A stretch of 64,000 nucleotides of DNA from Hyphomicrobiales bacterium (GTDB lineage Bacteria > Pseudomonadota > Alphaproteobacteria > Rhizobiales > Methylopilaceae). The notes under the pieces were generated by a model. The model was not told the DNA's origin. It searched no databases and was given only the letters and a program-made list of their open reading frames with translations. The DNA lies in the NCBI GenBank assembly GCA_022842205.1, contig JALHQA010000006.1, positions 1 through 64,000 on the forward strand, in the 5' to 3' direction. The position numbers and the translations under genes are program-made. Below, piece after piece: positions 3,490-7,666 of the stretch (the first letter of the stretch is position 1; each line of letters opens with the position of its first letter).

Positions 3490-4470
3490 ATGCGTTCTAT
3501 TCTGTGCCTTTTCCTGGTTTTTCCTGCTTTGATGCTTGGCGCGGGCTCTGCCGCCGCGCAGCAGACTCAGGCTCCCGCCGAAACGCCCGCCGCCGAGGCC
3601 AAGCCCGCCCGCAAGTCCTGGGTGCCCGCTTTTCTGCGGAACTATGAGAATCCGGCCCCTCGCGCCGTGCTGCCCGGCACGCAGGAAACCGCTGCCGCGC
3701 CGAAAGAGCCGGCAGCCCAGTCGGCGCCTGCGGTTGAAGCTCCCAAGAAGACCGTGAAGAAGACAGCCAAGAAAAAGACGAAGAAAAAGAAAGCCGCGAA
3801 GAAGAAAAAGAAGGCTGTGAAGAAAAAGGCGCCGAAGCCGGAGGTGGAGCCCGAGAATGTTGCCGAAGGCGCCCACGATGTTGCTGCGTTCGAAGCCGAA
3901 GAGCCGGTCAAAACGCCGGAAGTCGAAATGCTGGGCGGCCGCGGTTCGGTCTCGGGTGCGGCTCTCACGATGCCGCCGGATATCGAACCGCCTTTGACCG
4001 GCACCCCCATCGATACGCTGGCACTGTACAAGCAGGCCATGTCGAGCGGCGACATCACGGGGGCGCTCGCTCTTTTCCGGCAAACTGTCAATACGCCGCC
4101 GGATATCAATCTCGTTGCGAAGCTCAATGGACTTATGGATGTCTCGCTATCGACCGAGCAGGCCGCCGAACTGGTCGATGAAGTTGCGGAATTTGCAGCC
4201 GTTCAGGCGCCGCGCCCGCCATCGGTCGAAGCCGCGCGCATTCACGGCGTGCACGAAGTGATCGCGAATGCTGCCGCGCCGTCCCTGGTCGTCGCGCTGG
4301 AACACTACAAGTCCGCGGTCGCGGCCGGTGACCGGCTTGCCGCCGTACAGTCGCTGACGCGCGTTCTCGGGCGCCCCATTGACGACGAAGCGGCGCGACA
4401 GGCCAATATGTTGCTGAATCTTCCCGCGCCCGGCCTTTTGACAGACCAGGCTGCAGTGCGCACCAATTAA
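3490..4470 (+). CDS. Exported protein with a long lysine-rich linker, function unknown
   Basis: A 326-residue protein starting at ATG 3490 (MRSILCLFLVFP) with a Sec signal peptide that probably ends at AAAQQ near residue 25. The next part is Ala/Pro-rich. Roughly residues 87-116 are almost entirely Lys and Ala (KKTAKKKTKKKKAAKKKKK), resembling histone-H1-like tails. The C-terminal 150 residues look helical and repetitive (IDTLALYKQAMSSGDITGALALF and a related segment LVVALEHYKSAVAAGDRLAAV), suggesting Sel1- or TPR-like helical repeats. Such a cationic linker in an exported protein could bind peptidoglycan, LPS or anionic polymer, but that is inference. The stop overlaps a tiny convergent ORF within TTAA at 4467-4470. 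Confidence 0.7.
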   Translation: MRSILCLFLVFPALMLGAGSAAAQQTQAPAETPAAEAKPARKSWVPAFLRNYENPAPRAVLPGTQETAAAPKEPAAQSAPAVEAPKKTVKKTAKKKTKKKKAAKKKKKAVKKKAPKPEVEPENVAEGAHDVAAFEAEEPVKTPEVEMLGGRGSVSGAALTMPPDIEPPLTGTPIDTLALYKQAMSSGDITGALALFRQTVNTPPDINLVAKLNGLMDVSLSTEQAAELVDEVAEFAAVQAPRPPSVEAARIHGVHEVIANAAAPSLVVALEHYKSAVAAGDRLAAVQSLTRVLGRPIDDEAARQANMLLNLPAPGLLTDQAAVRTN

Positions 4471-4544
4471 ACGAATGCGAGGATGAGTGCTGCCAAGGCA
4501 ACGCCGATAATGGCAAACAGCAGCCAGTTCAGTTCAAGCTTCAT
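4467..4544 (-). CDS. Candidate 25-residue single-helix membrane microprotein
   Basis: On the minus strand, ATG at 4544 runs to TAA at 4467. It encodes a short charged head (MKLELNW) followed by one uninterrupted hydrophobic helix ending in LILAFV. A GAAAAGG ribosome site lies about six bases upstream. The stop shares TTAA with the stop of the convergent exported protein. Size and layout fit the class of bacterial membrane microproteins that modulate larger membrane complexes, but I recognise no homologue. It would be missed by any length cut-off. Confidence 0.35.
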   Translation of the reverse strand: MKLELNWLLFAIIGVALAALILAFV

Positions 4545-4676
4545 TGCGCGGCCTTTTCAATGGGCGGGAGCGTGAAGTCTCCCAGCCGGCAATGCCCTGT
4601 TCTGGTGCCGATAACGAAGTCTACCCGACAGGGCAGGGAGCGCGCCAACCTATGTTAGGCGACTATCTGGGAGCCT

Positions 4677-4715
4677 AAAGTCACTCCTTGACTTTATTCC
4701 TATCCTGTGTTACAC
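4677..4715 (+). promoter_or_regulatory. Palindrome overlapping a possible promoter
   Basis: AAAGTCA at 4677-4683 and TGACTTT at 4689-4695 form a perfect 7-bp inverted repeat around CTCCT. The right arm contains TTGACT (4688-4693), which could be a -35 element, with a weak -10 candidate TTACAC at 4710-4715 after a 16-base spacer. This is the layout of a repressor operator over a -35 box. Upstream, TGCCCTGT at 4593-4600 and ACAGGGCA at 4628-4635 form another perfect 8-bp inverted repeat with a long loop. No regulator family is recognised. Confidence 0.3.
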
Positions 4716-5100
4716 ATGGCGTGCTTTCGGTCACGGAGGGCGCGGTCATGAGGCGTTCTGGTTGCGGATCGGGAAGTGCGGTGTTCGGCGAGGGGGTCGC
4801 TCCCTGAACCGAACGGCCCAAGGCGTGCGGTCCCGGCGGGCTCAGTACACCCGCCACAGGAGACCCCTGCGGTCGGCCGGTCCGTTAACCTCCAAACCGG
4901 GAGGCCAGAGGCCGGCACGGGGTCCCGTTAGTGGAGGCTACAAAGCTAAGCCTCCAGGGGCGAGCACGCAGCAAGCCGAAAAGACACCGTGCGCGGGACG
5001 TCGGCGCAATCAAGTGTTCGCGGATTGCGAAACTTGAGAGAGCGGCTTCCCCGAGGTGAATGAAAAACTGGTGCTGGTGTTCTCAAACACTGCCAGCGCC
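4716..5100 (+). ncRNA. Unassigned structured region, possible non-coding RNA
   Basis: No convincing protein lies between 4545 and 5331. This part is a series of stable hairpins: GTTCGG 4783-4788 with CCGAAC 4809-4814, GGCGGG 4835-4840 with CCCGCC 4850-4855, CGGCC 4874-4878 with GGCCG 4910-4914 enclosing CCTCC/GGAGG, and TGGAGGCT 4932-4939 with AGCCTCCA 4949-4956. Further stems are CAAGT-TTCGC 5011-5021 with GCGAA-ACTTG 5027-5036, and a 12-bp interrupted stem at 5070-5100 closed by a CTCA loop. The unpaired stretches are A-rich (ACAAAGCTA, AAGCCGAAAAGACACC), as in folded RNAs. It lacks the diagnostic motifs of RNase P RNA, tmRNA, SRP RNA or a B12 riboswitch. Strand is inferred from the candidate promoter. 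Confidence 0.35.
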
Positions 5101-5331
5101 GCCGCGGGAGCGGCCAATCTCCCGGCGTCCCGCGCGCCCCTCCATTTCGGAGGGTGACGAGAGGACGAGGACCCGCCGGGGCGCAGAGCCCCGCGCATCG
5201 CACGCCTTCTTCCGGAGCCGATGGCGCATGCCCTGGAAATAAGGCCCGGTGCGTTTGCGTCGTCTCCCCTGCATGTCTATGGTGCCCGCCGCTCCCGAGG
5301 GAGCCGGATTCTCAGACGGTAACGGACCGAA
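5101..5331 (+). other. Hairpin-rich leader immediately before the YfgM-like gene
   Basis: The hairpins continue to the next start codon: CGGGAG 5105-5110 with CTCCCG 5119-5124, CCCTCC 5138-5143 with GGAGGG 5149-5154, CGGGGC 5177-5182 with GCCCCG 5188-5193, and GCTCC 5291-5295 with GGAGC 5300-5304. None is followed by a run of T, so none is a standard intrinsic terminator. Either this is a long structured 5' leader or it is spacer between a small RNA and the gene. No coding frame here looks real. Confidence 0.3.
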
Positions 5332-5991
5332 ATGTCGGATATTTTCAACGAGATCGAAGAGGACATCCGCAAGGAGCGGATGGAAAAGCTGTGGCGGCGC
5401 TATGGCCCGTTCGTCATCGCCGCGGCGGTTCTCGTTGTGCTCGGCGTGTCCGGCTGGCGTGGCTGGGAATGGTATTCGGCAAAGCAGGCTGAAGAAGCCG
5501 GCAGCCGCTACGAGTCGGCGCTGGTTCTGGCGCGCGAAGGCAAGGCCGCGGAAGCCGAGGCCGCATTGCGGGCGCTGGCCGCCGATGGGCCGTCGGGATA
5601 CGCGCTGCTGGCGCGTTTCCGCTCGGCGACCGAGCTGGCGTCCACCGACAAGGCCGGTGCGGCCGCGCGCTTCGAAGAGATCGCCCAGGATATTTCGGTG
5701 CCTACTGGTCTGCGCGATCTGGCGCGCATCCGTTCCGCGCTTCTCCTTGTCGATACCGGCAGCCAGTCCGATGTGGCGAGCCGGGTTGAGGCGCTTGCCG
5801 TTGCCGGCAATGCATGGCGTCATGCGGCGCGCGAGATTCTTGCGCTGGCCGCGTGGAAGGCCGGCAATGCCGCCGACACGCAGCGCTGGGCGCAGGAACT
5901 GATCGCCGATCCCGAGACGCCGCCCGGCGTTCGGGCCCGTGGGCAGCTTCTGCTCGATCTCGCGGCGGGCGCCGCCCCGCCTGCGCCATGA
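5332..5991 (+). CDS. YfgM-like membrane-anchored tetratricopeptide protein
   Basis: A 219-residue protein with an N-terminal cytoplasmic amphipathic segment (SDIFNEIEEDIRKERMEKLWRRYG), one membrane helix at about residues 26-45 and a periplasmic helical-repeat domain rich in Ala, Glu and Arg. This is the layout of the YfgM/TPR_21 family, which in E. coli links the Sec translocon to periplasmic chaperones. Gene order supports the call: yfgM, bamB and der are neighbours in many Proteobacteria, and here a lipoprotein and der follow. The ATG at 5332 has only a weak ribosome site, which may matter given the structured leader. Confidence 0.8.
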   Translation: MSDIFNEIEEDIRKERMEKLWRRYGPFVIAAAVLVVLGVSGWRGWEWYSAKQAEEAGSRYESALVLAREGKAAEAEAALRALAADGPSGYALLARFRSATELASTDKAGAAARFEEIAQDISVPTGLRDLARIRSALLLVDTGSQSDVASRVEALAVAGNAWRHAAREILALAAWKAGNAADTQRWAQELIADPETPPGVRARGQLLLDLAAGAAPPAP

Positions 5992-6013
5992 TGTTCGGAG
6001 ACAAGAAATAGAT

Positions 6014-6304
6014 ATGGCACGCTTCGCAGCTCTGCTTCTTCTGTCCGCCTCCGCGTTTGTCCTGACGGGCTGCGAGAGCGCACGCAGCCTCAATCCGTTC
6101 GCCGAGAAGGACAAGATCCTGCCGGGCGAGCGCCGGCCGGTGTTCGAGCAGGGCTCGGGCTTCGAAGGCCCGCGCAAGCTGCCGCCGCCGAACAGCGATT
6201 ACATGGGCTCGACCATTGGCGCCAATCAACCGCCGCCACCGCCGGTGACGACGGCGCCAGCACCCGGAACCGAGCCTGCTCCGTCCGCGTCTCCGGCACG
6301 CTAG
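6014..6304 (+). CDS. 96-residue lipoprotein in the bamB position
   Basis: The signal peptide ends in the lipobox LTGC with the lipidated cysteine at residue 20. Mature residues 21-41 (ESARSLNPFAEKDKILPGER) resemble the start of alphaproteobacterial BamB proteins, where an LPGER-type motif follows the lipid anchor. The rest is only about 55 residues of Pro/Ala-rich, apparently unstructured sequence. The eight-bladed WD40/PQQ-like propeller that makes BamB about 380-450 residues is absent, and der follows 15 bases later. There is no frameshifted propeller remnant in the short gap, so this is a miniature protein or an ancient truncation. The BamB link rests on position and a short motif. Confidence 0.65.
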   Translation: MARFAALLLLSASAFVLTGCESARSLNPFAEKDKILPGERRPVFEQGSGFEGPRKLPPPNSDYMGSTIGANQPPPPPVTTAPAPGTEPAPSASPAR

Positions 6305-6319
6305 GCCGGGAGCCGGCAT

Positions 6320-7666
6320 ATGCACATCATCGCGATTGCCGGCCGGCCGAATGTCGGCAAGTCCACGCTGTTCAACCGTCTGGTCGGCAAACGCCTCGCG
6401 CTGGTCGACGATCAGCCCGGTGTCACGCGCGATCGCCGGGAAGGCGAGGCGCGTATTGGCGATTTCGAATTCACGGCTGTCGATACCGCCGGGCTTGAGG
6501 ATGCGGAGAAGGCATCGCTTGCCGGCCGCATGACGGCGCAGACGGTTTCCGCCATTTCCGATGCCGACGCCGTGCTCTTCGTCATCGACGCGCGTGTCGG
6601 CGTTACACCGGAAGATCGGCATTTCGCGGACATCGTTCGCAAGTCGGGCAAGCCCGTTGTCCTCGTCGCAAACAAGGCCGAGGGCAAGGAAGGTTTGGCC
6701 GGCGCCTACGATGCCTTCAGCCTCGGCCTTGGCGATCCCGTGCCTTTGTCGGCCGAACATGGCGAGGGCCTTGCCGATCTCTATCAGGCGCTGCGGGGTG
6801 TTCTCGGCTTCGAGGACGACGACGAAGACGAGGAAGACGACGAGAGCGAAGGTCCGCTTTCCGTCGCCATCGTCGGCCGCCCCAACGCCGGCAAGTCCAC
6901 GCTCATCAACCGTCTGCTCGGCGAAGAGCGTCTTCTGACCGGTCCTGAAGCCGGCATCACGCGCGACGCCATCTCTGTCGATCTTAAATGGCGCGGCAAG
7001 GACGTCCGCCTCGTCGATACCGCCGGCATGCGCCGCAAGGCGAAGGTCCAGGACAAGCTGGAAAAGCTGGCTGTCTCCGACTCGCTGCGTTCCATCCAGT
7101 ACGCCGAGGTCGTCGTGGTCCTTCTCGACGCCACCGTGCCGTTCGAAAAGCAGGATCTGCAGATCGCCGATCTCGTCTCGCGCGAGGGCAGGGCCATCGT
7201 TATCGCGCTCAACAAGTGGGACCTGATCGAGGATCGCGTTGGTGCCCTGAAAGTCCATCGCGAAGCCGCCGACCGTCTTCTGCCGCAAGTGCGCGGCATG
7301 CAATTGGTTGCGGTGTCAGGCTCCACGGGCGAAGGCATCGATCGCCTGATGCAGGCTGTCGTCAAGGCGTATGAAATCTGGAACAAGCGCGTACCGACAG
7401 CGCGCATCAACCGCTGGCTCGATGGCGTTCTGCAGTCCCATCCGCCGCCGGCCGTTCGCGGCGCGCGTATCAAGCTGCGCTACATGACCCAGACAAAGGC
7501 CCGCCCGCCCAGCTTCGTGCTGTTCGGCACGCGTACGAATGCGCTTCCCGAGAGCTATGTCCGTTATCTGGTGAATGGACTGCGCGAGGCGTTCGAACTG
7601 CCGGGCACGCCGATCCGGCTTGCTTTCCGCGAGCCGAAAAATCCGTTCTCCAACAAGAACGATTAA
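6320..7666 (+). CDS. der: Ribosome assembly GTPase Der (EngA)
   Basis: A 448-residue protein with two tandem TrmE-Era-like GTPase domains and a C-terminal KH-like domain, needed for 50S subunit maturation. Domain 1 has the P-loop GRPNVGKST at residues 8-16 and DTAG; domain 2 has GRPNAGKST near residue 186, DTAG and NKWD. The linker contains an acidic run ([12 protein letters not shown]), typical of Der. The C-terminus has the KH-type stretch around [19 protein letters not shown]. Its TAA stop shares TTAA with the stop of the convergent SDR gene. Confidence 0.97.

Follow-up and report, generated by a model that had tools for sequence, protein, structure and literature searches.

In the window, by which we mean the whole 64,000-nucleotide stretch of DNA analysed here (genome G000, from a bacterium of the family Methylopilaceae), a gap of 861 bases separates an open reading frame ending at 4470 from a YfgM-like one starting at 5332. 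An earlier reading, made from the sequence alone, had noticed there about 860 bases rich in hairpins, a length that fits the gap, even though the coordinates attached to it, 4545–5331, amount to only 787. It had seen no credible open reading frame, and rightly so: frames lying wholly inside the gap reach at most 91 amino acids, the longer ones merely overlapping its edges. Because frames are short and, in addition, copies of the element described below differ in length by numbers that are not multiples of three, the element looks non-coding, and a protein-coding nature was rejected on these grounds. The region of interest had been set at 4716–5310; the element really begins 28 bases earlier, at 4688, and ends near 5232, on the + strand. 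The bases from about 5271 to 5331 lie outside it and form the upstream region of yfgM, common to three congeners (G001, G002 and G003). A separate dispersed repeat of about 55 nt is found upstream of the element, at 4561–4614, with 82% identity to a stretch near locus L018.

As far as sequence comparison can tell, the segment 4688–5232 represents a single member of a family dispersed in multiple copies, each made of a promoter-like site followed by a non-coding, covarying body (Table 1). What had been taken for an orphan thus has at least 15 dispersed copies in the genome of the window, retrieved by BLAST and a covariance model. The unit spans some 400–550 bp, homology between copies running from TTGAC to just past a GCGC-type motif: in L008 homology to the window stops at 5232, and most other copies end, by eye, soon after a CGCGCG-type motif. 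Both stems singled out by the sequence-only reading are present in the central domain. The candidate promoter it proposed fared less evenly: a promoter scan came out empty, yet a promoter-like site at the start of the element recurs in other copies.

Table 1. Features of the window copy (R1 is a covariance model of the 3' domain)
Feature	Positions	Strand	Basis
Promoter-like site: TTGACT 4688–4693, 17-nt spacer with conserved ATTCCTAT and TG, TACACA 4711–4716	4688–4716	+	Pattern recurrence
5' domain: helix P1 4721–4732/4767–4779 around hairpin stem 4739–4743/4753–4757	4721–4783	+	Covariation
Self-complementary loop hexamer UCAUGA, putative symmetric kissing loop	4746–4751	+	19/19 distinct sequences of the genus palindromic, five types
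Proposed helix closing the central domain: GCGGUG 4778–4783 with CACCGU 4985–4990	4778–4990	+	Read from alignment, not counted separately
Central hairpin GTTCGG/CCGAAC (4783–4788/4809–4814), differing between copies	4783–4814	+	Sequence; other sequences here in other copies
Central hairpin TGGAGGCT/AGCCTCCA	4932–4956	+	96/104 cells paired, 13 hairpins
3' domain: long stem 4991–5004/5122–5135 with inner hairpins	4985–5144	+	R1 match and covariation
Hairpin-bearing 3' tail, bounded by a GCGC-type motif beyond which copies are no longer homologous	5145–5232	+	Homology to L008

Structure and inferred strand of the proposed RNA

Folding of 4715–5240 yields −274.5 kcal/mol, to be compared with −241.4 ± 6.9 for 100 dinucleotide shuffles (z −4.8, 0/100 as good). 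For 4700–5331, z is −4.7 on the + strand and −1.95 on the − strand, with 20 shuffles each and none as good on either. In the 3' domain, compared in 17 copies, 97.7% of 475 cells are paired and eight pairs have changed on both sides, two figures that none of 500 shuffles reaches. The alignment used (A2) retains 17 of 22 distinct 3' domains, five insertion-bearing G000 copies and the places without the left anchor being excluded. When the partner strand is slid as a control, pairing is at most 46%; the number of additional pair types is unremarkable (153/500). The 5' domain, in 19 copies, has 93.8% of 323 cells paired and a covariation score, neither of which is matched in 500 shuffles, together with five pairs changed on both sides (12/500). 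Within the central domain, the hairpin TGGAGGCT/AGCCTCCA was counted by a script that takes the arms by sequence, alignment A7 being shifted between genomes; it displays compensatory change at five of its eight positions, a kind of support that the sequence-only reading had named in advance for its stems.

Outside the genus of the window the same type of evidence varies in strength. The Methylobacterium-type 3' stem has 99.6% of 255 cells paired (0/500 shuffles) and three pairs changed on both sides (6/500), in an alignment (A5) of 17 out of 26 non-redundant sequences drawn from 116, from which two chance matches and seven Methylopila-type or MAG sequences were excluded. It is weaker for the Methylopila-type 3' domain, where all 154 of 154 cells are paired, with two of 14 pairs changed on both sides and 12–24 of 500 shuffles as high. 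R1, built without the window copy, recognizes the 3' domain of the window with 117 bits (E 1.9e-20), leaving a weak 25.6-bit match on the other strand. The 3' and 5' domains contain many G-U pairs, which become C-A, hence unpaired, on the opposite strand; from these pairs and the bias in folding we infer that the RNA strand is +, the same strand as the promoter-like site. Judged by these alignments, compensatory changes go beyond chance as expected of a structured non-coding RNA, and RNA structure is well supported.

The architecture is not uniform. The helix proposed to close the central domain competes with the last pair of P1; an extra hairpin around 5002–5036 of the 3' domain belongs to some G000 copies only; and the 3' domain is built differently among subfamilies. 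Pairing of the 3' tail with a GGCCCAAGGC segment is possible in L001 and L011. Two G000 copies, L020 and L022, agree with other copies in their 5' part but carry a 3' stem of another sequence, as though the 3' domain had been swapped; this stem nevertheless pairs (GCGCGGAGCGA/TCGCTCCGCGC in L020).

Copies, range and spread

A BLAST search of 41 genomes with window positions 4660–5331 returned 16 pieces at 13 places in G000, as well as matches in G002 and G003; the congener G001 gave none, and the 26 bases matched in G026, the only ones elsewhere, look fortuitous. R1, built from G000, G002 and G003, adds two places in G000, and gives 13 matches in G002, three in G003 and none in G001. Its matches in a sister genus are weak, with the same layout on inspection; under strict filters, it matched five of 297 genomes of the order, all in the family of the window. 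A second model, R2, derived from copies of G006, G009, G011, G012 and G016, matches 16 of 18 genomes of the family when E is kept to 0.01 or below: the complete genome G012 has 24 places and several others a single one; G001 and G005 remained without a match. Its structure holds a short hairpin thought to be wrong for Methylopila copies, where the long stem probably continues, and the matches inspected were judged on layout. Among 385 genomes of the class R2 matched only G000 and G131. A third model, R3, was built from Methylobacterium-type, Enterovirga and Beijerinckiaceae records. It matches 30 of the 40 genomes in the genus to which G131 belongs, with one to 20 matches each and more than one in 14; this genus, whose copies resemble named records, may be taken as Methylobacterium. 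With strict filters, R3 is limited to five of 119 genomes of the family of G131 and to two of 385 in the class, G131 and G311. The three models match their own source sequences by construction.

A pattern scan of 84,980 species, with one genome per species, retrieved 117 stretches. Among the matches listed (80 of the 117), 63 belong to Methylobacterium or Methylorubrum, 15 to Methylopila, Hansschlegelia, Chelatococcus, Enterovirga, Beijerinckiaceae or an unplaced MAG, and two look like chance. Pattern matches in a Streptomyces (L139) and in a Kiloniellaceae MAG (L161) were dropped, as no element surrounds either. The models and the scan thus point to an RNA family frequent in a small number of genera and seldom met outside them. 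The record named Chelatococcus sambhunathii S14 (L156/L163) may be misnamed, the corresponding genome G011 being placed in the genus of Methylopila. Plasmids yielded nothing by BLAST with the window as query; queries L142 and L200 match only a record of M. bullatum, NZ_LR743510.1, which carries one annotated feature in all, so that absence of annotation there is uninformative.

With no match in G001 and G005, the RNA is accessory, and its copy number changes fast. The sequence-only reading had suggested comparing panB-der intergenic regions, which failed: in G001, G002 and G003 the 1.5 kb preceding yfgM contain no element. Fourteen copies of G012 align closely, and the eight compared by BLAST share both the RNA and upstream GC-rich repeats. 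The copies L099–L122 of that genome fall mostly into two groups, the first with a homogeneous RNA body and variable promoters, the second sharing upstream GC-rich mosaic repeats. Comparing G011 with G016 for an empty site gave no exact junction, other repeats and contig ends intervening. Draft contigs begin or end inside the element at L015, L021, L024, L038, L039 and L040; repeats of the element seem to break assemblies. Spread by gene conversion, and by recombination through flanking repeats, is a guess.

REP/BIME sequences and MITEs are dispersed, non-coding, hairpin-rich intergenic repeats of variable copy number, features that the element shares. It could then be a selfish or passive repeat that spreads as DNA, its hairpins being used for transposition or arising as by-products, without any function as RNA. 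To be sure, this would suit a dispersed element of very uneven copy number, with near-identical copies at different sites, absent before yfgM in three congeners, adjoining other GC-rich repeats and once (L103) deprived of its 5' part. A 10-nt inverted repeat also lies near both ends of L014; however, no inverted repeat joins the ends of the other two copies tested, that of the window and L011, and no transposase-like open reading frame is present inside. A DNA repeat of this kind would account poorly for a promoter-like site kept between families, for compensatory changes and strand-biased G-U pairs extending over distant helices, or for the one orthologous copy that G008, G009 and G013 keep at one site. 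We consider it unlikely, though it retains some weight.

Known RNAs, promoter-like site and neighbouring genes

The suggestion of the sequence-only reading that this is possibly a new structured RNA would have been refuted by a strong Rfam match. It is supported instead: no family matched the window copy at gathering score, and stems of relatives carry the compensatory changes described above. A permissive search of 3500–6500 gave only a microRNA model at 4263–4355 (E 1.5), outside the element, and Rfam applied to ten relatives a sole match, SNORD36 at threshold in L200 (576–650), some 1.9 kb before the element and taken as chance. Searches of an open-access library and of Rfam turned up no report of this RNA. 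Rfam models can miss distant members of a class, and the element may be one that has diverged too far; with nothing at gathering score in the window, a lone match of relatives that falls outside the element, and taxa, multi-copy habit and layout that, to our knowledge, fit no known RNA class, we give this little credence.

Models of OLE, ROOL and GOLLD stand in Rfam, and GOLLD is associated with phages or prophages. Like the element, these three RNAs are large, with an elaborate covarying structure and a poorly known function; they are described as ornate and homo-oligomeric bacterial RNAs (PMC12286853). The element, whose structure and possible oligomers are inferred from sequence alone, differs by its lack of an Rfam match, by its taxa, by its promoter-like site and by being scattered in many copies through a genome. 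A phage or prophage association is also reported for ROOL (PMC12286853). By contrast, a phage collection searched by BLAST with the window and L200 queries gave 0 matches, as did two exact patterns in viral contigs, and a phage RNA was rejected on that account. Methylobacterium-1 RNA (RF01712), likewise a candidate structured RNA, takes its name from the genus Methylobacterium (PMC2864571); it differs in that RF01712 was not matched in the window or ten relatives, the presence of this model in the Rfam copy used not being confirmed.

The promoter scan that came out empty in the window copy looked for sigma-70 sites on its + strand, and found none in L142 either. The pattern TTGAC-W-N-W-ATTCCTAT-N4-TG occurs in 67 of 308 collected loci, some of them overlapping or representing the same copy. 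In 97 copies from named genomes (18 without enough room and two chance matches having been excluded), TTGAC is found 280–560 nt before the 3' stem in 89; at the same distance the longer pattern is exact in 24 and present with three mismatches or fewer in 62. Downstream control windows, the total of which was not recorded, had TTGAC in four cases and the longer pattern in none. A terminator scan detected no U-run terminator on the + strand of the window element or in L142. Transcription of the element is likely, as an inference made without transcript data. Inverted repeats, perhaps operators, overlap the −35 box or adjoin it; their sequence is ATAATCCTTG..CAAGGATTAT, or a close variant of it, in G002 and GGAATAAATTCC in Methylopila-type copies (L002, L006, L019, L023, L025 and L030; L044, L053 and L058).

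Transcription might also serve the gene that follows, the element then being its leader in cis (a riboswitch or an attenuator). The window copy immediately precedes yfgM and shares its strand, and among 24 copies (14 from G000, nine from G002, one from G003, not every place) the nearest downstream open reading frame is co-directed in 15, opposed in eight and missing in one, by crude gene calls. With eight of 23 opposed, leader function is not general, and a riboswitch was rejected on this mixed orientation. Furthermore, genes beside G000 copies are unrelated, with none recurring by eye, and yfgM of the three congeners keeps its proximal upstream region without the element. A leader role is therefore hardly to be expected. 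Very improbable indeed is a retroelement moved by reverse transcription (a group II intron remnant, a retron or a SINE-like unit): it would suit a sharp unit of promoter and RNA and the truncated L103, but Rfam produced no match to introns or retrons, no RVT_1 match was obtained in G000, G002, G010 and G012, all with many copies (G012 complete, the others drafts), and, of the five out of 18 family genomes with a reverse transcriptase match, three (G008, G013 and G017) have a single RNA place. Movement by a genome-coded reverse transcriptase was rejected because many-copy genomes lack such a match. A reverse transcriptase gene, which could be cited in favour of a retroelement, sits about 2 kb from the sole RNA place of G008 (L285, C1:4105000–4115000).

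Loop palindromes and a putative dimer

In the window's genus, every distinct 5' hairpin that fits the extraction has a self-complementary hexamer in its loop, and the hexamer differs between copies: UCAUGA, UCGCGA, CUCGAG, UCCGGA or UCUAGA. Four of these are UC-NN-GA, with AU, GC, UA and CG, the four self-complementary dinucleotides, in the middle, CUCGAG being the fifth. G000 combines UCAUGA, UCGCGA, UCUAGA and UCCGGA, and G002 UCAUGA, UCGCGA, CUCGAG and UCCGGA. A second extraction, which takes only copies fitting three flank patterns and concerns mostly Methylopila relatives, has 21 of 22 contexts palindromic, the exception being UCUGGA in G017. A group of G012 copies shows, by eye, CGGTACCG in the loop. 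In the Methylobacterium-type copies examined loops are mostly not palindromic.

A palindromic hexamer occurs by chance in about one third of 26-nt stretches (33% of shuffles, 156 of 454 other windows of the element), so that its mere presence is weak evidence; what counts is where it stands and that its type changes. Given UC..GA, the probability that four middles out of four are self-complementary by chance is about 0.004 if they are independent, a generous assumption: only two middle bases vary within UC..GA, and copies are related. As adjacent bases cannot pair within one chain, palindromes that change into one another argue for pairing between molecules. In retroviruses, the dimer initiation site is a palindromic hexamer in a hairpin loop, able to pair with its own copy; the likeness concerns a way of working, as the element is an unrelated cellular RNA whose dimerisation is only inferred. 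Loop bases also switch between palindromes in OLE and GOLLD, for which the same argument from adjacent bases was made in favour of symmetric kissing loops (PMC12286853). Homodimerisation in the Methylopila branch is plausible on this comparative ground, in the absence of dimer data.

Our preferred reading, with a probability of roughly 0.6, is a free RNA made from its own promoter, acting in trans, dimeric through its palindromic loop in the family of the window, and used as a scaffold or sponge for a partner; its expression, dimerisation and function are all inferred. Each copy would be transcribed from its own housekeeping-type promoter into an RNA independent of the next gene, folding into a 5' hairpin domain, a central domain variable between copies and a 3' stem that is rigid. 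The 5' loop palindrome of the window's family would hold two RNAs of one subtype together through a symmetric kissing loop, and a partner, protein or RNA and not identified here, might use the pair as scaffold or sponge. Up to four different palindromes coexist in one genome, which would prevent cross-pairing between subtypes. A trans-acting RNA, able to homodimerise in the Methylopila branch, is inferred as the most likely solution. If transcribed, an RNA of about 400–550 nt that occurs in 30 of the 40 Methylobacterium genomes sampled and lacks an Rfam match would represent a sizeable gap in the RNA inventory. Homodimerisation has been reported for few natural RNAs (PMC12286853), and the switching of palindromes makes it testable with short synthetic loops.

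A further and rather doubtful idea is that of private dimer codes. Each subtype would join only itself, and the resulting mutually exclusive homodimers would have been multiplied and diversified in the way of a gene family. Different palindromes within one genome offer a test of such orthogonality. Finally, L308, a single match (E 9.6e-5) in G311, from another family of the class, has a GUCGAC palindrome in its apparent 5' loop, and may extend the range of the element.
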